DNA of 64,000 bases from Pseudobacter ginsenosidimutans (lineage in GTDB: Bacteria > Bacteroidota > Bacteroidia > Chitinophagales > Chitinophagaceae). The stretch is taken from assembly GCF_007970185.1 (NCBI RefSeq), contig NZ_CP042431.1, positions 1,054,001 through 1,118,000 of the forward strand. Direction: 5' to 3'. The notes under the pieces were generated by a model. It ran no database searches. It saw nothing but the letters and a program-made list of their open reading frames with translations, and was not told where the DNA came from. Positions within the stretch are counted from its first letter, which is position 1. Each line of letters starts with the position of its first letter. Made by a program: the position numbers and the translations under genes. Of this stretch, positions 26,648 through 48,909 are shown piece after piece.

Positions 26648-26678
26648 TTTGTCCGGTGTTTCCACAGGAGTACATTTG
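26648..26678 (+). promoter_or_regulatory. Promoter of the cobalamin operon (Bacteroidota consensus)
   Basis: TTTG at 26648-26651 and TACATTTG at 26671-26678 are separated by 19 nt, an exact match to TTTG-N19-TAnnTTTG. Transcription would start near 26685, at the 5' edge of the riboswitch. Confidence 0.8.
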
Positions 26679-26685
26679 CTGCCGT

Positions 26686-26885
26686 AATTGGTTTCCCGGA
26701 TCCGCAAGGTCCCGGGATTAAAAGGGAAACCGGTGTAATTCCGGTGCTATCCCCGTAGCTGTAAGTTGCAGATGCAGTATCAGATCCCACTGCATCATTG
26801 TTCAATCTTCATACCACTATCTTTTTTCGATGGGAAGGTGTTGAACAGGTAACGAGCCAGAAGACCTGCCAGTTATGTTTCAATC
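26686..26885 (+). ncRNA. Cobalamin (adenosylcobalamin) riboswitch
   Basis: The leader contains the conserved core GGGAAACCGGTGTAATTCCG (about 26724-26743) followed by GTGCTATCCCCGTAGCTGTA. A GAGCCAGAAGACCTGCC segment (about 26855-26871) is the B12-box partner. Peripheral hairpins lie between the two parts. In family terms, bound cobalamin would switch off expression of the downstream genes. It precedes btuB, and the operon up to cobC is probably under its control. It covers most of the 426-nt gene-free stretch 26568-26993. Confidence 0.93.
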
Positions 26886-26993
26886 ACATCAACGAGCTTT
26901 CGGGTGAAAAGCCGGGATGAAATGAGCGCCTCATCGCGCTGCCTCACATTTCATTTCTGTAATGAATTTCCGAAGGCTCATAGTAAACTAACT

Positions 26994-46465: not shown

Positions 46466-46498
46466 TTTGGCAGGAATGGAAAATTATTAACACCTTTG
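46466..46498 (+). promoter_or_regulatory. Predicted promoter of the 30-residue peptide gene
   Basis: TTTG (46466-46469) and CACCTTTG (46491-46498) are 21 nt apart. The -7 element differs from TAnnTTTG at the first base. The ATG follows at 46517. Confidence 0.55.
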
Positions 46499-46516
46499 CA
46501 TCATCAAATAACAAAC

Positions 46517-46609
46517 ATGCAACGCATAGATCTCCATATCGAAACAGTAAATGGCTTTAGCCCCAAAGGCGGCTACAGTGTTTGCGGGGCATGTTATGCT
46601 GATGAATAA
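46517..46609 (+). CDS. 30-residue cysteine-containing peptide
   Basis: The product begins MQRIDLHIETVNGFSPKGGY and ends SVCGACYADE. It has two cysteines in CGAC (residues 23 and 26). It has no signal peptide. Its own predicted promoter is upstream and a strong terminator is 30 nt downstream, so a monocistronic transcript with a short peptide is likely. I know no family for it. The polar N-terminus followed by a Gly/Ser/Cys-rich tail could fit a ribosomally made and modified peptide precursor (a leader then a core), but no modification enzyme gene is adjacent, so that remains a guess. Confidence 0.5.
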   Translation: MQRIDLHIETVNGFSPKGGYSVCGACYADE

Positions 46610-46638
46610 GTTTACAAAACGAATTCCATATAACTCAG

Positions 46639-46670
46639 GCCCCGCGTGAATCGCGGGGCTTTTTGTTTTT
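46639..46670 (+). terminator. Strong terminator after the 30-residue peptide gene
   Basis: GCCCCGCG (46639-46646) pairs with CGCGGGGC (46652-46659), loop TGAAT, followed by TTTTTGTTTTT. Confidence 0.92.
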
Positions 46671-46896
46671 ACCTTATTTATGAAAAAGAAGAAACTCTAA
46701 ATATGTAAAATGATCAATGACGATACTATCCAGACATATTCCATTCAAACGCAAGAGTGATACTGTGCTATTCCTCCAACAGGATCGGTGCGCCCATACT
46801 GACCCCGGTAACCAGCAGGAGAAAAACAGGAACTCTACCCGGCCGGACTGCACTATAACGTATATGTATACCTGAAAAACAGGAACATAAAAGCAG
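46671..46896 (+). pseudogene. Interrupted coding-like stretch between two terminators
   Basis: One frame from the ATG at 46710 reads MINDDTIQTYSIQTQE, then TGA (46758), then YCAIPPTGSVRPY, TGA (46800) and a TAA (46809). It then stays open from about 46812 to 46895, reading PAGEKQELYPAGLHYNVYVY and onward. The uninterrupted segments look coding, the stops do not. No intact ORF occurs. It may be a decayed small gene or pure chance; a non-coding RNA is also possible because it sits between terminators at 46639 and 46897. Confidence 0.3.
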
Positions 46897-46926
46897 GCCC
46901 GGTCAAAACTGACCGGGCTTTTTTAT
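46897..46926 (+). terminator. Terminator upstream of the tRNA-like genes
   Basis: GCCCGGTC (46897-46904) pairs with GACCGGGC (46911-46918), loop AAAACT, followed by TTTTTT. It separates the previous unit from the tRNA array. Confidence 0.92.
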
Positions 46927-46952: not shown

Positions 46953-47025
46953 ATAGGAGCATTCCGATTGGCCGGATACTTCATTTGGGGTGAAGAGGCT
47001 GCAGGTTCTAATCCTGTCTCCTATA
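46953..47025 (+). tRNA. tRNA-Pro-like (anticodon UGG), unusual
   Basis: Acceptor ATAGGAG (46953-46959) pairs perfectly with CTCCTAT (47018-47024). The anticodon stem is CTTCA/TGAAG and the loop TTTGGGG puts TGG at 46986-46988. The T arm is GCAGG/TTCTAAT/CCTGT. Odd points: position 8 is C rather than U, the D stem starts with a T-T mismatch, and the first base pair is A-U, which is unlike ordinary tRNA-Pro. No CCA is encoded. First of three closely spaced tRNA-like genes. Confidence 0.75.
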
Positions 47026-47047
47026 CAAAGCAGTAGTTCTGCTGCAT

Positions 47048-47119
47048 GGTTCGTTGGTGTAATGGTCAACATTGCAGATTGTCGATCTGCAGTTACGGGT
47101 TCGATTCCCGGAGACAACC
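47048..47119 (+). tRNA. tRNA-Asp-like (anticodon GUC), degenerate
   Basis: Anticodon stem GCAGA/TCTGC encloses TTGTCGA, so GUC is at 47081-47083. The D arm GTGT/ACAT and T loop TTCGATT with a 4-bp stem CGGG/CCCG are present. The acceptor GGTT.../...AACC pairs for four bases, then two mismatches follow, and the T-arm to acceptor junction has one extra base. It is therefore a weakened cloverleaf, either a pseudo-tRNA or an atypical tRNA. It lies 22 nt after the Pro gene. Confidence 0.55.
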
Positions 47120-47137
47120 GAAAATTATACAGAAAAT

Positions 47138-47210
47138 TGGCTTGTAGCTTAACTGGAAAAGCACCCGGCTTTTAACCGGGGGATTGTGAGTTCGAGTCTC
47201 ACCAGGCCAA
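47138..47210 (+). tRNA. tRNA-Lys (anticodon UUU)
   Basis: Acceptor TGGCTTG (47138-47144) pairs with CAGGCCA (47203-47209), starting with an unusual U1-A72 pair. The D stem GCTT/AAGC, anticodon stem CCCGG/CCGGG, loop CTTTTAA with TTT at 47171-47173, and T arm GTGAG/TTCGAGT/CTCAC are canonical. The discriminator is A. It ends only 19 nt before the ATG of the AAA+ ATPase gene. Confidence 0.85.
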
Positions 47211-47229
47211 CAACTTTAGAGCATTAATT

Positions 47230-48309
47230 ATGGAACAATTATACAACCAGAAAGCAATTCAAGCCACGGCTATTTTTGAGAACCGCTTCCTGAGCAGCAA
47301 AGCTTTATACTTATACTATTTCAATATAGTGCCAAACCTGAATTTCATCAGTAAGGTCGATGGCGAAAAAGCATTTCCTGCAATCAGGGAAAAATTCGCT
47401 CTGCTAATCCTTGACATATTCCAGCATCGTTGGTATAAAAGAGAAAACAGGAAATACGAATTCATTAGAACTGTGATCATCTTCAAAAACAACTGCATCA
47501 TAGAACTGAGCAATAATTGCTGCGAAATATTGAATGATGGCACAGAACCGGAATTCCTGGAAGCCATTTCCAGCCTCGCAAGTGAATTCAAAGAACGGCA
47601 ACGAAAGCAGCCCCTGGAGATCAACCTGATCGTCAGATCCTCTGATTGCCTTGAGTTGAAAGCAATGGAAATCAAACGGACCAAACTCGATCTTGATCTT
47701 TTCTATGAAAATGATTTTAAAGATACGGATGAGATCATCAGAAAAAGACTGAACAAGAAAAATGATAAGGGGATCGTTCTTCTGCATGGCTTGCCTGGAA
47801 CAGGTAAAACCACCTATCTGCGCTACCTCGTGGGAAAGATAAAGAAACGTGTAATGTTCCTCTCTCCTTCTGTAGCCGGAAATCTGGTGAACCCTGATTT
47901 TATTGACCTGCTGATCGACAACCCGAATTCCGTTCTGGTGATCGAAGACGCAGAAAATATAATCATGGACAGAAAATTCAATTCCGGATCTGCAGTTTCG
48001 AACCTGTTGAATATTTCAGACGGATTACTCGCAGATTTCCTGAACGTACAGATCATCTGCACCTTCAACAGCTCTGTGGCGCTCATCGATAGTGCACTGA
48101 TGCGAAAAGGACGGCTGATCGCAAAATACGAATTCGGCAAACTTGGCATCGCAAAGTCCAGGCAACTCAGTGATCATTTCGGCTTCGATACAAACATCAC
48201 ACAACCTATGACCATTGCAGAGATCGCCAATCAACATGAAAAAACAGAACCGGTCCGCCAGGTGGAAGTAATCGGATTCAGAAGAAATATTATTGAAAAC
48301 AAAACATGA
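47230..48309 (+). CDS. AAA+ ATPase (BCS1-like) downstream of tRNA-like genes
   Basis: A 359-residue protein. The first 170 residues are a helical domain I do not recognise. The AAA domain follows, with Walker A GLPGTGKTT (187-195), Walker B LVIEDAE (about 236-242, Asp240 and Glu239), a sensor-1 Asn in TFNSS (Asn280), and a MRKGRLIAKYEFGKL segment near 291-305 that resembles the arginine-finger and sensor-2 region of BCS1-type ATPases. No membrane segment or signal is seen. Its start codon is 19 nt after tRNA-Lys, so it is probably transcribed with the tRNAs. What the ATPase acts on is unknown. The YkuK-type gene starts 24 nt after its stop. Confidence 0.85.
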   Translation: MEQLYNQKAIQATAIFENRFLSSKALYLYYFNIVPNLNFISKVDGEKAFPAIREKFALLILDIFQHRWYKRENRKYEFIRTVIIFKNNCIIELSNNCCEILNDGTEPEFLEAISSLASEFKERQRKQPLEINLIVRSSDCLELKAMEIKRTKLDLDLFYENDFKDTDEIIRKRLNKKNDKGIVLLHGLPGTGKTTYLRYLVGKIKKRVMFLSPSVAGNLVNPDFIDLLIDNPNSVLVIEDAENIIMDRKFNSGSAVSNLLNISDGLLADFLNVQIICTFNSSVALIDSALMRKGRLIAKYEFGKLGIAKSRQLSDHFGFDTNITQPMTIAEIANQHEKTEPVRQVEVIGFRRNIIENKT

Positions 48310-48333
48310 TCTATTCAGAAATGGAGGTAACCC

Positions 48334-48816
48334 ATGCAACAGCAACATTGGAGAAAGCTGGACGGTACCAAACTCACAAGACCCATTGAAGACGAAGTGG
48401 AAGCCGTGTTGATACAGGAAAAAGAAATGGGACATGAATTGAAAGTTTGTATCGGTACCGATAGCCAGGTCAAAGGAAAGGAAACAGAATTTGCTACAGT
48501 GATCGTATTCATCCGGCAAGGAAAAGGTGGATTTATGTACATACACAATGAAACCAGTCTCCAAAAGATGACCGTTAAGCAAAGGATGCTGACGGAAGTA
48601 GCAAAAAGTATTGAAATCGCCTATGCGCTTTGTTGCCTGTTCACTGTTTATAACGTGGATATGGAAGTGCATGCAGACATCAACACCAATCCCAACTTTA
48701 AGAGCAACGATGCGCTGAAAGAGGCTATGGGATACATCATGGGAATGGGCTTCGTGTTCAAAGCCAAGCCGCATGCCTTCGCCAGCTCATGTTGCGCAGA
48801 TAAAGCAGTACAATAG
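48334..48816 (+). CDS. YkuK/DUF458-type RNase H-fold protein
   Basis: A 160-residue protein. LKVCIGTDSQVKGKETEFAT near residue 36 contains the first acidic residue of an RNase H-like strand. MEVHADINTNPNFKSNDAL near residue 110 and the C-terminal CCADKAVQ add further acidic residues. This matches the YkuK (DUF458) family, predicted RNase H-like proteins with no proven substrate in most bacteria. A strong Shine-Dalgarno-like GGAGG (48323-48327) precedes the ATG by seven bases, unusual in this phylum. Close spacing to the AAA+ ATPase suggests one transcript. A nucleic-acid cleaving or binding role is plausible from the fold. Confidence 0.8.
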   Translation: MQQQHWRKLDGTKLTRPIEDEVEAVLIQEKEMGHELKVCIGTDSQVKGKETEFATVIVFIRQGKGGFMYIHNETSLQKMTVKQRMLTEVAKSIEIAYALCCLFTVYNVDMEVHADINTNPNFKSNDALKEAMGYIMGMGFVFKAKPHAFASSCCADKAVQ

Positions 48817-48826
48817 CGTACCAAAT

Positions 48827-48860
48827 AATTTGTACCATGTGTTATCACCTGGTACAAATT
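48827..48860. repeat. Perfect 11-bp inverted repeat between ykuK-like and araC-like genes
   Basis: AATTTGTACCA (48827-48837) and TGGTACAAATT (48850-48860) are exact inverse copies around a 12-nt loop. It could be a terminator for the upstream unit (TTTCT follows) or an operator for the AraC-type gene that starts at 48910. Confidence 0.6.
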
Positions 48861-48909
48861 TCTCTCCTTGTCAGAAAAATGTTTGATTTTTGCAATTCAA
48901 GCATTCCCC

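Follow-up and report, generated by a model that had tools for sequence, protein, structure and literature searches.

Why do three tRNA genes stand directly in front of the genes for an AAA+ ATPase and a YkuK-type protein in Pseudobacter ginsenosidimutans? The locus lies in a 64,000-nucleotide (nt) stretch of this genome (contig NZ_CP042431.1, positions 1,054,001 to 1,118,000 of the forward strand; hereafter the window, numbered from its first base). Comparison with other Chitinophagaceae indicates that the unit is probably the reduced and relocated array half of a translation-stress-inducible operon for tRNA replacement and repair. The computed evidence comprises gene linkage and synteny, the presence of two leaders in the genome, hairpins that exclude one another, a leader peptide under selection, and array tRNAs that in relatives keep their stems but have changed anticodon loops.

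All five genes lie on the plus strand with gaps of 16 to 24 nt. A first-pass annotation of this DNA had read them as a tRNA-Pro, tRNA-Asp and tRNA-Lys array followed by the ATPase and YkuK, and ARAGORN, PF00004 and PF04308 bear this out. By ARAGORN boundaries, tRNA-Pro(UGG) (46953..47026), tRNA-Asp(GUC) (47047..47121) and tRNA-Lys(UUU) (47138..47211) are 20 and 16 nt apart, compared with the 22 and 18 nt first described. The BCS1-like AAA+ ATPase gene (47230..48309; PF00004, 7.3e-11) has its ATG 18 nt past tRNA-Lys, close to the 19 nt given earlier, and the YkuK gene (48334..48816; PF04308, RNase H fold, 3.7e-36) starts 24 nt past the ATPase, the same distance as annotated. An AT-rich inverted repeat near 48826..48861 on the same strand, expected at 48827, is a possible 3′ end of the unit. 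Both reading frames are intact. By RF00005 score and stem pairing, tRNA-Lys is intact (68.3 bits); tRNA-Pro (39.4 bits) and tRNA-Asp (35.7 bits; 5 of 7 acceptor-stem pairs) are degenerate and are the two lowest of the 48 RF00005 matches in the 7.8-Mb genome, tRNA-Pro being missed in a window scan run with the Rfam fast filters. Housekeeping copies exist for all three anticodons, and their sequences are very different from those in the window.

Related loci were taken from stretches around ATPase matches and from 80 named loci on genome contigs; 161 were oriented, and collapsing those whose joined proteins were identical over their initial 300 residues left 133. The ATPase search matches 66 of 195 family genomes, some of them partially, in a patchy distribution. 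Adjacent ATPase and YkuK genes (n = 49) are preceded by at least two tRNAs in 41 loci, by one in 3 and by none in 5. Because at least two tRNAs lie just upstream in those 41 loci, the association of tRNAs, ATPase and YkuK, for which this very comparison had been proposed, is not a matter of chance. The accompanying expectation that the ATPase would not lie apart from tRNAs in relatives held only in part: 53 of the 61 ATPase loci with no YkuK in the fetched stretch have no tRNA nearby, 2 have one and 6 have at least two. Three further loci contain YkuK with the array farther away, and loci with YkuK only (n = 20) carry at least two tRNAs in 10 cases, one in 2 and none in 8. Distant ATPase relatives from a phylum search (L258 to L270; n = 13, two from the family) have a tRNA within 1.5 kb once (tRNA-Arg, L269). 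The array tracks YkuK and RtcB (below) at least as well as it tracks the ATPase.

The order array, YkuK, ATPase is found in 34 of the 49 adjacent loci; the window's order of array, ATPase, YkuK accounts for the other 15. The largest array has 18 tRNAs (L160), and those of Niastella have 9 to 13, compared with 3 in the window. A rough order is kept along the arrays (Pro-Gly/Ala-Glu-Asp-Gln-His-Arg-Met-Ile-Val-Lys-Asn-Tyr-Ser-Phe-Trp). Among 52 arrays of at least three tRNAs, Phe is present in 42, Lys in 39, Asn and His in 37 each, Gln in 34 and Arg-ACG in 33; tRNA-Thr occurs in none of the 52.

Families of neighbouring genes were defined by sequence clustering of flanking open reading frames (ORFs) and named by Pfam on one locus (L179, Niastella caeni). 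Its neighbours include RtcB (1.1e-77), an SPFH/Band_7 protein (slipin; 4.3e-30), DinB_2, a radical SAM protein, a 2′-5′ RNA ligase-type phosphoesterase, a histidine kinase and a response regulator, with two further families that have no Pfam match. Where ATPase loci have at least two tRNAs and 5 kb on both sides (n = 42), RtcB is present in 36 (within about 8 kb), slipin in 29 and YkuK in 34, and RtcB or slipin is present in 39. ATPase loci with equal flanks, lacking YkuK and any tRNA in the 4 kb upstream (n = 45), have RtcB in 20, lack it in 25, and have slipin in 4. The dedicated tRNA-handling or tRNA-sensing system at which the first-pass annotation hinted thus gains support from the RtcB, slipin, 2H phosphoesterases and predicted leader attenuator of related loci; its suggestion of a tRNA-primed system gains none.

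In P. ginsenosidimutans itself RtcB is encoded at 1,220,824, a syntenic position about 120 kb from the window module. The Niastella order is LigT-LigT-radical SAM-histidine kinase-response regulator-[13 tRNAs]-ATPase-YkuK-slipin-DinB-RtcB, and the P. ginsenosidimutans RtcB locus reads LigT-LigT-radical SAM-histidine kinase-response regulator-[1.18 kb]-RtcB, with the downstream families c18 and c8 shared between the two. The 1.18-kb gap contains no array, ATPase, YkuK, slipin or DinB, and a Niastella slipin query has no match in the P. ginsenosidimutans genome. The simplest reading of these gene orders is that the tRNA-ATPase-YkuK module moved as one piece. A divergent second RtcB gene is also present in this genome, away from the regulon (L341, 7005-8135; G000, about 2,052,000).

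Each of the two separated halves is preceded by a leader, first seen as a stretch conserved between the region upstream of the window cassette and Niastella. In the window it spans 46466-46925 on the plus strand and consists of two units, each a short ORF followed by an intrinsic terminator. Unit 1 has a predicted promoter, TTTG-N-ACACCTTTG (46466..46498), which we take to be of the Bacteroidota type; 18 nt further on lies leader ORF 1 (46517..46609; 30 residues, MQRIDLHIETVNGFSPKGGYSVCGACYADE), which contains the putative antiterminator arm GCGGGGC (46584..46590) and is followed by terminator 1, the predicted attenuator (46637..46664). Unit 2 comprises leader ORF 2 (46717..46875; about 52 residues, with RPDC near its end) and terminator 2, a predicted second attenuator (46896..46925) whose counterpart is present in 48 of 62 leaders; it is the weaker unit, since the pattern search recovers a complementary element in just 20 of those 48. 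Terminator 2 is the strong terminator that the first-pass annotation had placed at about 46897. The terminator is real, but its role in isolating the unit at the 5′ end finds no support: as part of the conserved leader, it looks like an internal attenuator and not a boundary.

Unit 1 was found by pattern in 62 distinct leaders, that of the window included; the pattern was written after the first leaders were known, and over 2.0 Mb it gave 62 matches on the plus strand and 0 on the minus strand. The ORF is mostly 30 codons long (M-x-R-x-x-x-H-I-E-x-x-N-x-F-S-P-x-G-D-Y-x-V-C-G-A-C-Y-A-x-E) and mostly ends 22-32 nt 5′ of the terminator GGCCCCGC...GCGGGG-T5. A promoter-like pattern lies within 100 nt upstream of 52 of the 62 leader ORFs, as against 172 of 6,000 random 100-nt windows and 44 of 1,625 regions upstream of other ORFs. 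Over codons 2-21 of 44 ORFs of 30 residues, the ratio of nonsynonymous to synonymous single-base codon differences is 1.48 against 3.62 expected (from pairwise, hence non-independent, counts); the leader peptide is under purifying selection.

The end of the ORF has a second constraint. GGGGC occurs in the last 45 nt of 52 of the 62 leader ORFs and in the earlier part of none, and since CGGGGC occupies one reading frame in 42 leaders and another in 6, bases and not amino acids alone are conserved there. In all 52 element-bearing leaders the 5′ arm of the terminator can pair with the GCGGGGC end of the ORF. The antiterminator forms with a probability above 0.5 in 52 of 52 leaders folded without the terminator 3′ arm and in 6 of 52 folded with it, and shuffling the ORF lowers the median arm-to-ORF pairing from 1.0 to 0.575. 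The predicted layout, in which a terminator follows a short ORF that overlaps the antiterminator, is also that of the leader-peptide attenuators of trp and his biosynthesis. Here, however, the leader uses many different amino acids rather than repeats of one, and the output is tRNAs and repair enzymes.

This breadth is measurable. Codons 2-21 hold 15.6 distinct residues, compared with 11.9 (standard deviation 1.5) in random 20-residue windows, and the 32 leaders below 55% identity still have 15.1; a run of one regulatory codon, a hallmark of such attenuators, is accordingly missing from these 20 codons. The excess is confined to the 13 amino acids with tRNAs in at least a quarter of the arrays (10.8 against 7.5; others, 4.7 against 4.4). 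In codons 22-30 residue enrichment correlates negatively with array content (rho -0.53) because they encode the GCGGGGC element.

A covariance model of the leader finds two full leaders in the P. ginsenosidimutans genome, plus three weak partial matches. One is that of the window (143.6 bits, 3.3e-30), which belongs to the model's own sequences; the other, outside those sequences, lies at the RtcB locus (1.2e-12). The RtcB-locus leader (L340, 10226-11403) encodes an aberrant peptide (MSQKMQHIETVKWFALNPSDAIRGLVMLQHSRIEKILKI) and keeps both alternative unit-1 hairpins. Across the family the model matches 98 of 195 genomes at E 0.001, with a weak tail that is mostly partial. Downstream of 31 full-length leaders (L343, L344 and L348-L376), a regulon gene (a tRNA, the ATPase or a protein resembling its N-terminal part, YkuK, slipin or RtcB) follows within about 1.5 kb in 28; none does so in L367, L369 and L371. 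Conversely, a leader was found by pattern within 1.8 kb of 39 of the 48 arrays with enough upstream sequence, and the model detects one on the same strand for the remaining nine, in eight of them 0.25-3 kb upstream, some with intervening genes; in L250 the leader precedes an ATPase gene that lies 5 kb ahead of the array. Five YkuK loci that lack tRNAs (L172-L176, of which three belong to the housekeeping group described below) have no leader by either pattern or model. In a phylum sample of 296 genomes, 6 genomes outside the family match, by the terminator half only except in G456, which has a weak full-length match (33.6 bits).

The products of the arrays are, for the most part, well-formed tRNAs. 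Acceptor stems of 449 array tRNAs average 6.92 of 7 pairs, the same as housekeeping tRNAs; anticodon stems, with pairs counted outward from the anticodon, average 4.71 of 5 compared with 4.91, and compensatory swaps are frequent. An encoded CCA end is present in 34. It is the anticodon loops that differ. For the 22 anticodons with at least four copies, 116 of 427 array loops are the same as a sampled housekeeping loop, the comparison set being partial (the P. ginsenosidimutans genome together with 20 stretches from G160 and 20 from G085, with 1-9 loops per anticodon). The count is 0 of 28 for Asp, 0 of 34 for Gln, 0 of 37 for His, 0 of 18 for Glu, 0 of 22 for Pro, 0 of 20 for Ile-GAU and 1 of 42 for Phe. 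A pyrimidine at position 37 occurs in 31 of the 449 array tRNAs and a base other than U33 in 16, each compared with 0 of 91 housekeeping tRNAs (91 by genome, or 79 by sequence without the tRNA-Arg of the window); these loop changes resemble what has been proposed for phage tRNAs (PMC10264068). Array tRNA-Phe (31 sequences) divides into two types that differ strongly; one of them has an unusual D-arm and, in many copies, the loop GUGAAAU; because the two types are mixed, a multiple alignment of these sequences was not used for pair counts.

YkuK matches occur in 179 of 195 family genomes, and the array copies are distinct from the housekeeping ones. In a midpoint-rooted tree of 80 rows (one of 81 dropped; many branches weak), 22 rows lack tRNAs. 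Ten of these, including the second copy in P. ginsenosidimutans, form one group with support 100/100, and the array YkuKs fall outside it, as do the other 12 tRNA-less rows. On the tree the array label switches nine times, compared with 19.5 in shuffles. Residues D43, E88 and D115 are invariant in 35 of 35 array-lineage YkuKs, are kept in the window copy, and are candidate catalytic acids of the RNase H type; the YkuK/PF04308 literature consulted reports no activity. For the ATPase, the best sequence match in the PDB is BCS1 (3.2e-7, over residues 183-303); the Walker A/B residues G-x-P-G-x-G-K-T and E239-D240 are invariant in 59 sequences, and in a structure model (mean predicted local distance difference test score 81.6) the AAA domain is preceded by an alpha/beta domain at the N terminus. 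Several genomes encode a stand-alone protein resembling this N-terminal part, either adjacent to the ATPase gene or located after the leader and ahead of RtcB (L348, 2127-2552; L349, 2077-2517; L078, 7376-7669), so the N-terminal part may act on its own.

From these elements we infer how the operon would be induced, how its tRNAs would resist nucleases and what YkuK and the ATPase would do. Transcription would start near 46505 and normally end at attenuator 1 (and 2): as long as ribosomes complete the leader ORF, they would prevent its GCGGGGC end from base-pairing with the 5′ arm of the terminator. When decoding falters, because tRNAs are cleaved, uncharged or absent or because ribosomes are blocked, the leader would be left unfinished, the antiterminator would form and RNA polymerase would read through into the tRNAs, the ATPase and YkuK; the same type of leader would release RtcB at its separate locus. 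The array would supply redundant tRNAs whose altered anticodon loops escape the nucleases that cut housekeeping tRNAs, and RtcB, with the LigT-type 2H phosphoesterases nearby, would reseal the cut ones. The probable job of YkuK is to trim array transcripts or to clear away damaged tRNA; the BCS1-like ATPase, joined in other species by slipin, may be a remodelling or scaffold part. A more specific version, which we regard as possible and hold tentatively, is a general decoding-failure attenuator. The leader peptide would serve as a broad decoding test, test-driving the tRNA pool by using most of the vulnerable amino acids once each; loss of any one tRNA would stall the ribosome and release spare nuclease-proof tRNAs, RtcB, YkuK and the ATPase, a set that in P. 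ginsenosidimutans is split between two places, each with its own switch.

Several observations weigh against this explanation. The terminator is far more stable in full leaders, so the switch depends on co-transcriptional timing, and covariation supports the terminator stem only, because the antiterminator core GGGGC:GCCCC hardly varies; GGGGC itself is absent from 10 of the 62 leaders. Enrichment of residues in the leader against array content is not significant (rho 0.32, permutation p 0.08). In Chitinophaga loci the leader lies ahead of the ATPase, often twice, in stretches that contain no array and no RtcB; the switch thus serves more than tRNA supply. Not all array loops are changed: those of Lys (29 of 39), Met (19 of 19), Ile-UAU (18 of 18) and Trp (11 of 13) are identical to housekeeping loops. 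Finally, the window copy may be half dead, since two of its three tRNAs look decayed and the slipin query came back empty.

This last point can be taken further, to the view that the window copy is a relic of such an operon and no longer functions, a reading that concerns this copy and not the family. The decayed tRNAs, the empty slipin query and the small array compared with Niastella all favour it, but both protein frames are intact with their catalytic residues kept, and the leader scores highly, though among the model's own sequences; we consider it somewhat unlikely. For the family as a whole, the array tRNAs might not translate at all, being bound by YkuK, the ATPase or slipin as ribonucleoprotein scaffolds or as nuclease decoys for RtcB repair. 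The altered loops, with their unusual positions 33 and 37, and the degenerate tRNA-Pro and tRNA-Asp of the window fit such a role, as does the tRNA-like RNA reported for SPFH/Band-7 repair systems (Burroughs and Aravind, 2016). Many anticodons in a roughly constant order, on mostly intact acceptor and anticodon stems, fit decoding better than a single scaffold, however, and a set of decoys would not have to span so many amino acids, which leaves this quite doubtful. That the arrays merely supplement the supply for rare codons, with the ATPase and YkuK adjacent by chance, is highly improbable: tRNA dosage could matter, since all three window anticodons have housekeeping copies, but the window set is redundant and divergent, and the arrays lie behind predicted attenuators and near RtcB.

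The island could instead be anti-phage defence or anti-defence cargo, perhaps phage-derived, that blocks or survives a tRNA-cleaving conflict, an idea compatible with the favoured operon for replacement and repair. Two phages carry YkuK homologues within tRNA arrays: DSS3_MAL1, in whose stretch ARAGORN counts 24 tRNAs and where the homologue adjoins a peptidyl-tRNA hydrolase, and DLP_6 (37); ATPase-like proteins occur in jumbo phages, and the patchy family distribution also fits. Yet PADLOC gives weak generic AAA matches for the ATPase and none for YkuK, the phage YkuKs are less than 60% identical, and three of the five phage YkuK loci have few tRNAs, 1-6 kb away, or none. Conserved chromosomal neighbours, and strong full-length leaders found only within the family, point to a resident regulon, and a defence origin seems unlikely to us. 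The two phage homologues inside tRNA arrays are loci L152 and L155. Other candidates were set aside. A known defence system was dropped after the PADLOC search; as for a phage or mobile-element array, viral_contigs was scanned with single proteins, which reaches close relatives only, and none was confirmed for YkuK or the ATPase, although distant phage homologues exist; and for a riboswitch known to Rfam, tRNAs alone reached the gathering score here, hits in the RtcB-locus gap falling far below the cut-offs. A cobalamin riboswitch (108.8 bits) lies at 26672-26887 of the window.

Among known systems, SPFH/Band-7 proteins of RtcB repair systems are said, in work of Burroughs and Aravind from 2016, to be linked to a cognate tRNA-like RNA. 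Set against those reported systems, the loci described here have as many as 18 tRNAs, which bear many anticodons, as well as a YkuK paralogue and a predicted leader attenuator; novelty over them is claimed with reserve. In the P. aeruginosa rtc locus an SPFH protein, PaFlo8, adjoins RtcB (PMC13086221). The closest parallel is offered by Anabaena with its trn operon and TrcR regulon, in which a silent tRNA array is induced by translational stress, and loss of the repressor TrcR derepresses the 26-tRNA array together with RtcB, slipin and an AAA ATPase (PMC10272220). The same source describes that array as lying on a megaplasmid, apart from rtcB, under a ribbon-helix-helix DNA-binding repressor, whereas here there is one neighbourhood, a predicted RNA attenuator and YkuK (PMC10272220). 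Like the Anabaena array, the cluster is redundant and apart from housekeeping genes (redundancy was checked for the three window tRNAs); stress induction is predicted here from attenuator structure. RtcBA/RtcR operons are RtcB ligase operons induced by damaged tRNA (PMC7790460, PMC9650030); here there are predicted leader attenuation and a tRNA array, and RtcA and RtcR are not among ten Pfam-named neighbour proteins, with no search aimed at either. In units of mycobacterial plasmids and phages, too, redundant tRNAs are clustered and their anticodon arms altered, and these tRNAs have been proposed to evade tRNA-cutting defences; those units are plasmid or phage cargo, whereas the present arrays belong to bacterial genomes and lie near RtcB, together with YkuK, the ATPase and a predicted attenuator (PMC12803027, PMC10264068). 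A literature search that did not extend to leader attenuators of tRNA arrays brought up no description of tRNA arrays accompanied by both YkuK and RtcB.

If the favoured explanation holds, these operons would be a bacterial, host-owned counterpart of phage tRNA arrays and would provide a functional setting for the YkuK/DUF458 family. Their leader would be an RNA switch that senses failing translation broadly rather than the supply of one amino acid, and any resistance of loop-changed array tRNAs to anticodon nucleases would become testable. In many members of one bacterial family, tRNA replacement and tRNA repair would thus be joined in one regulon.

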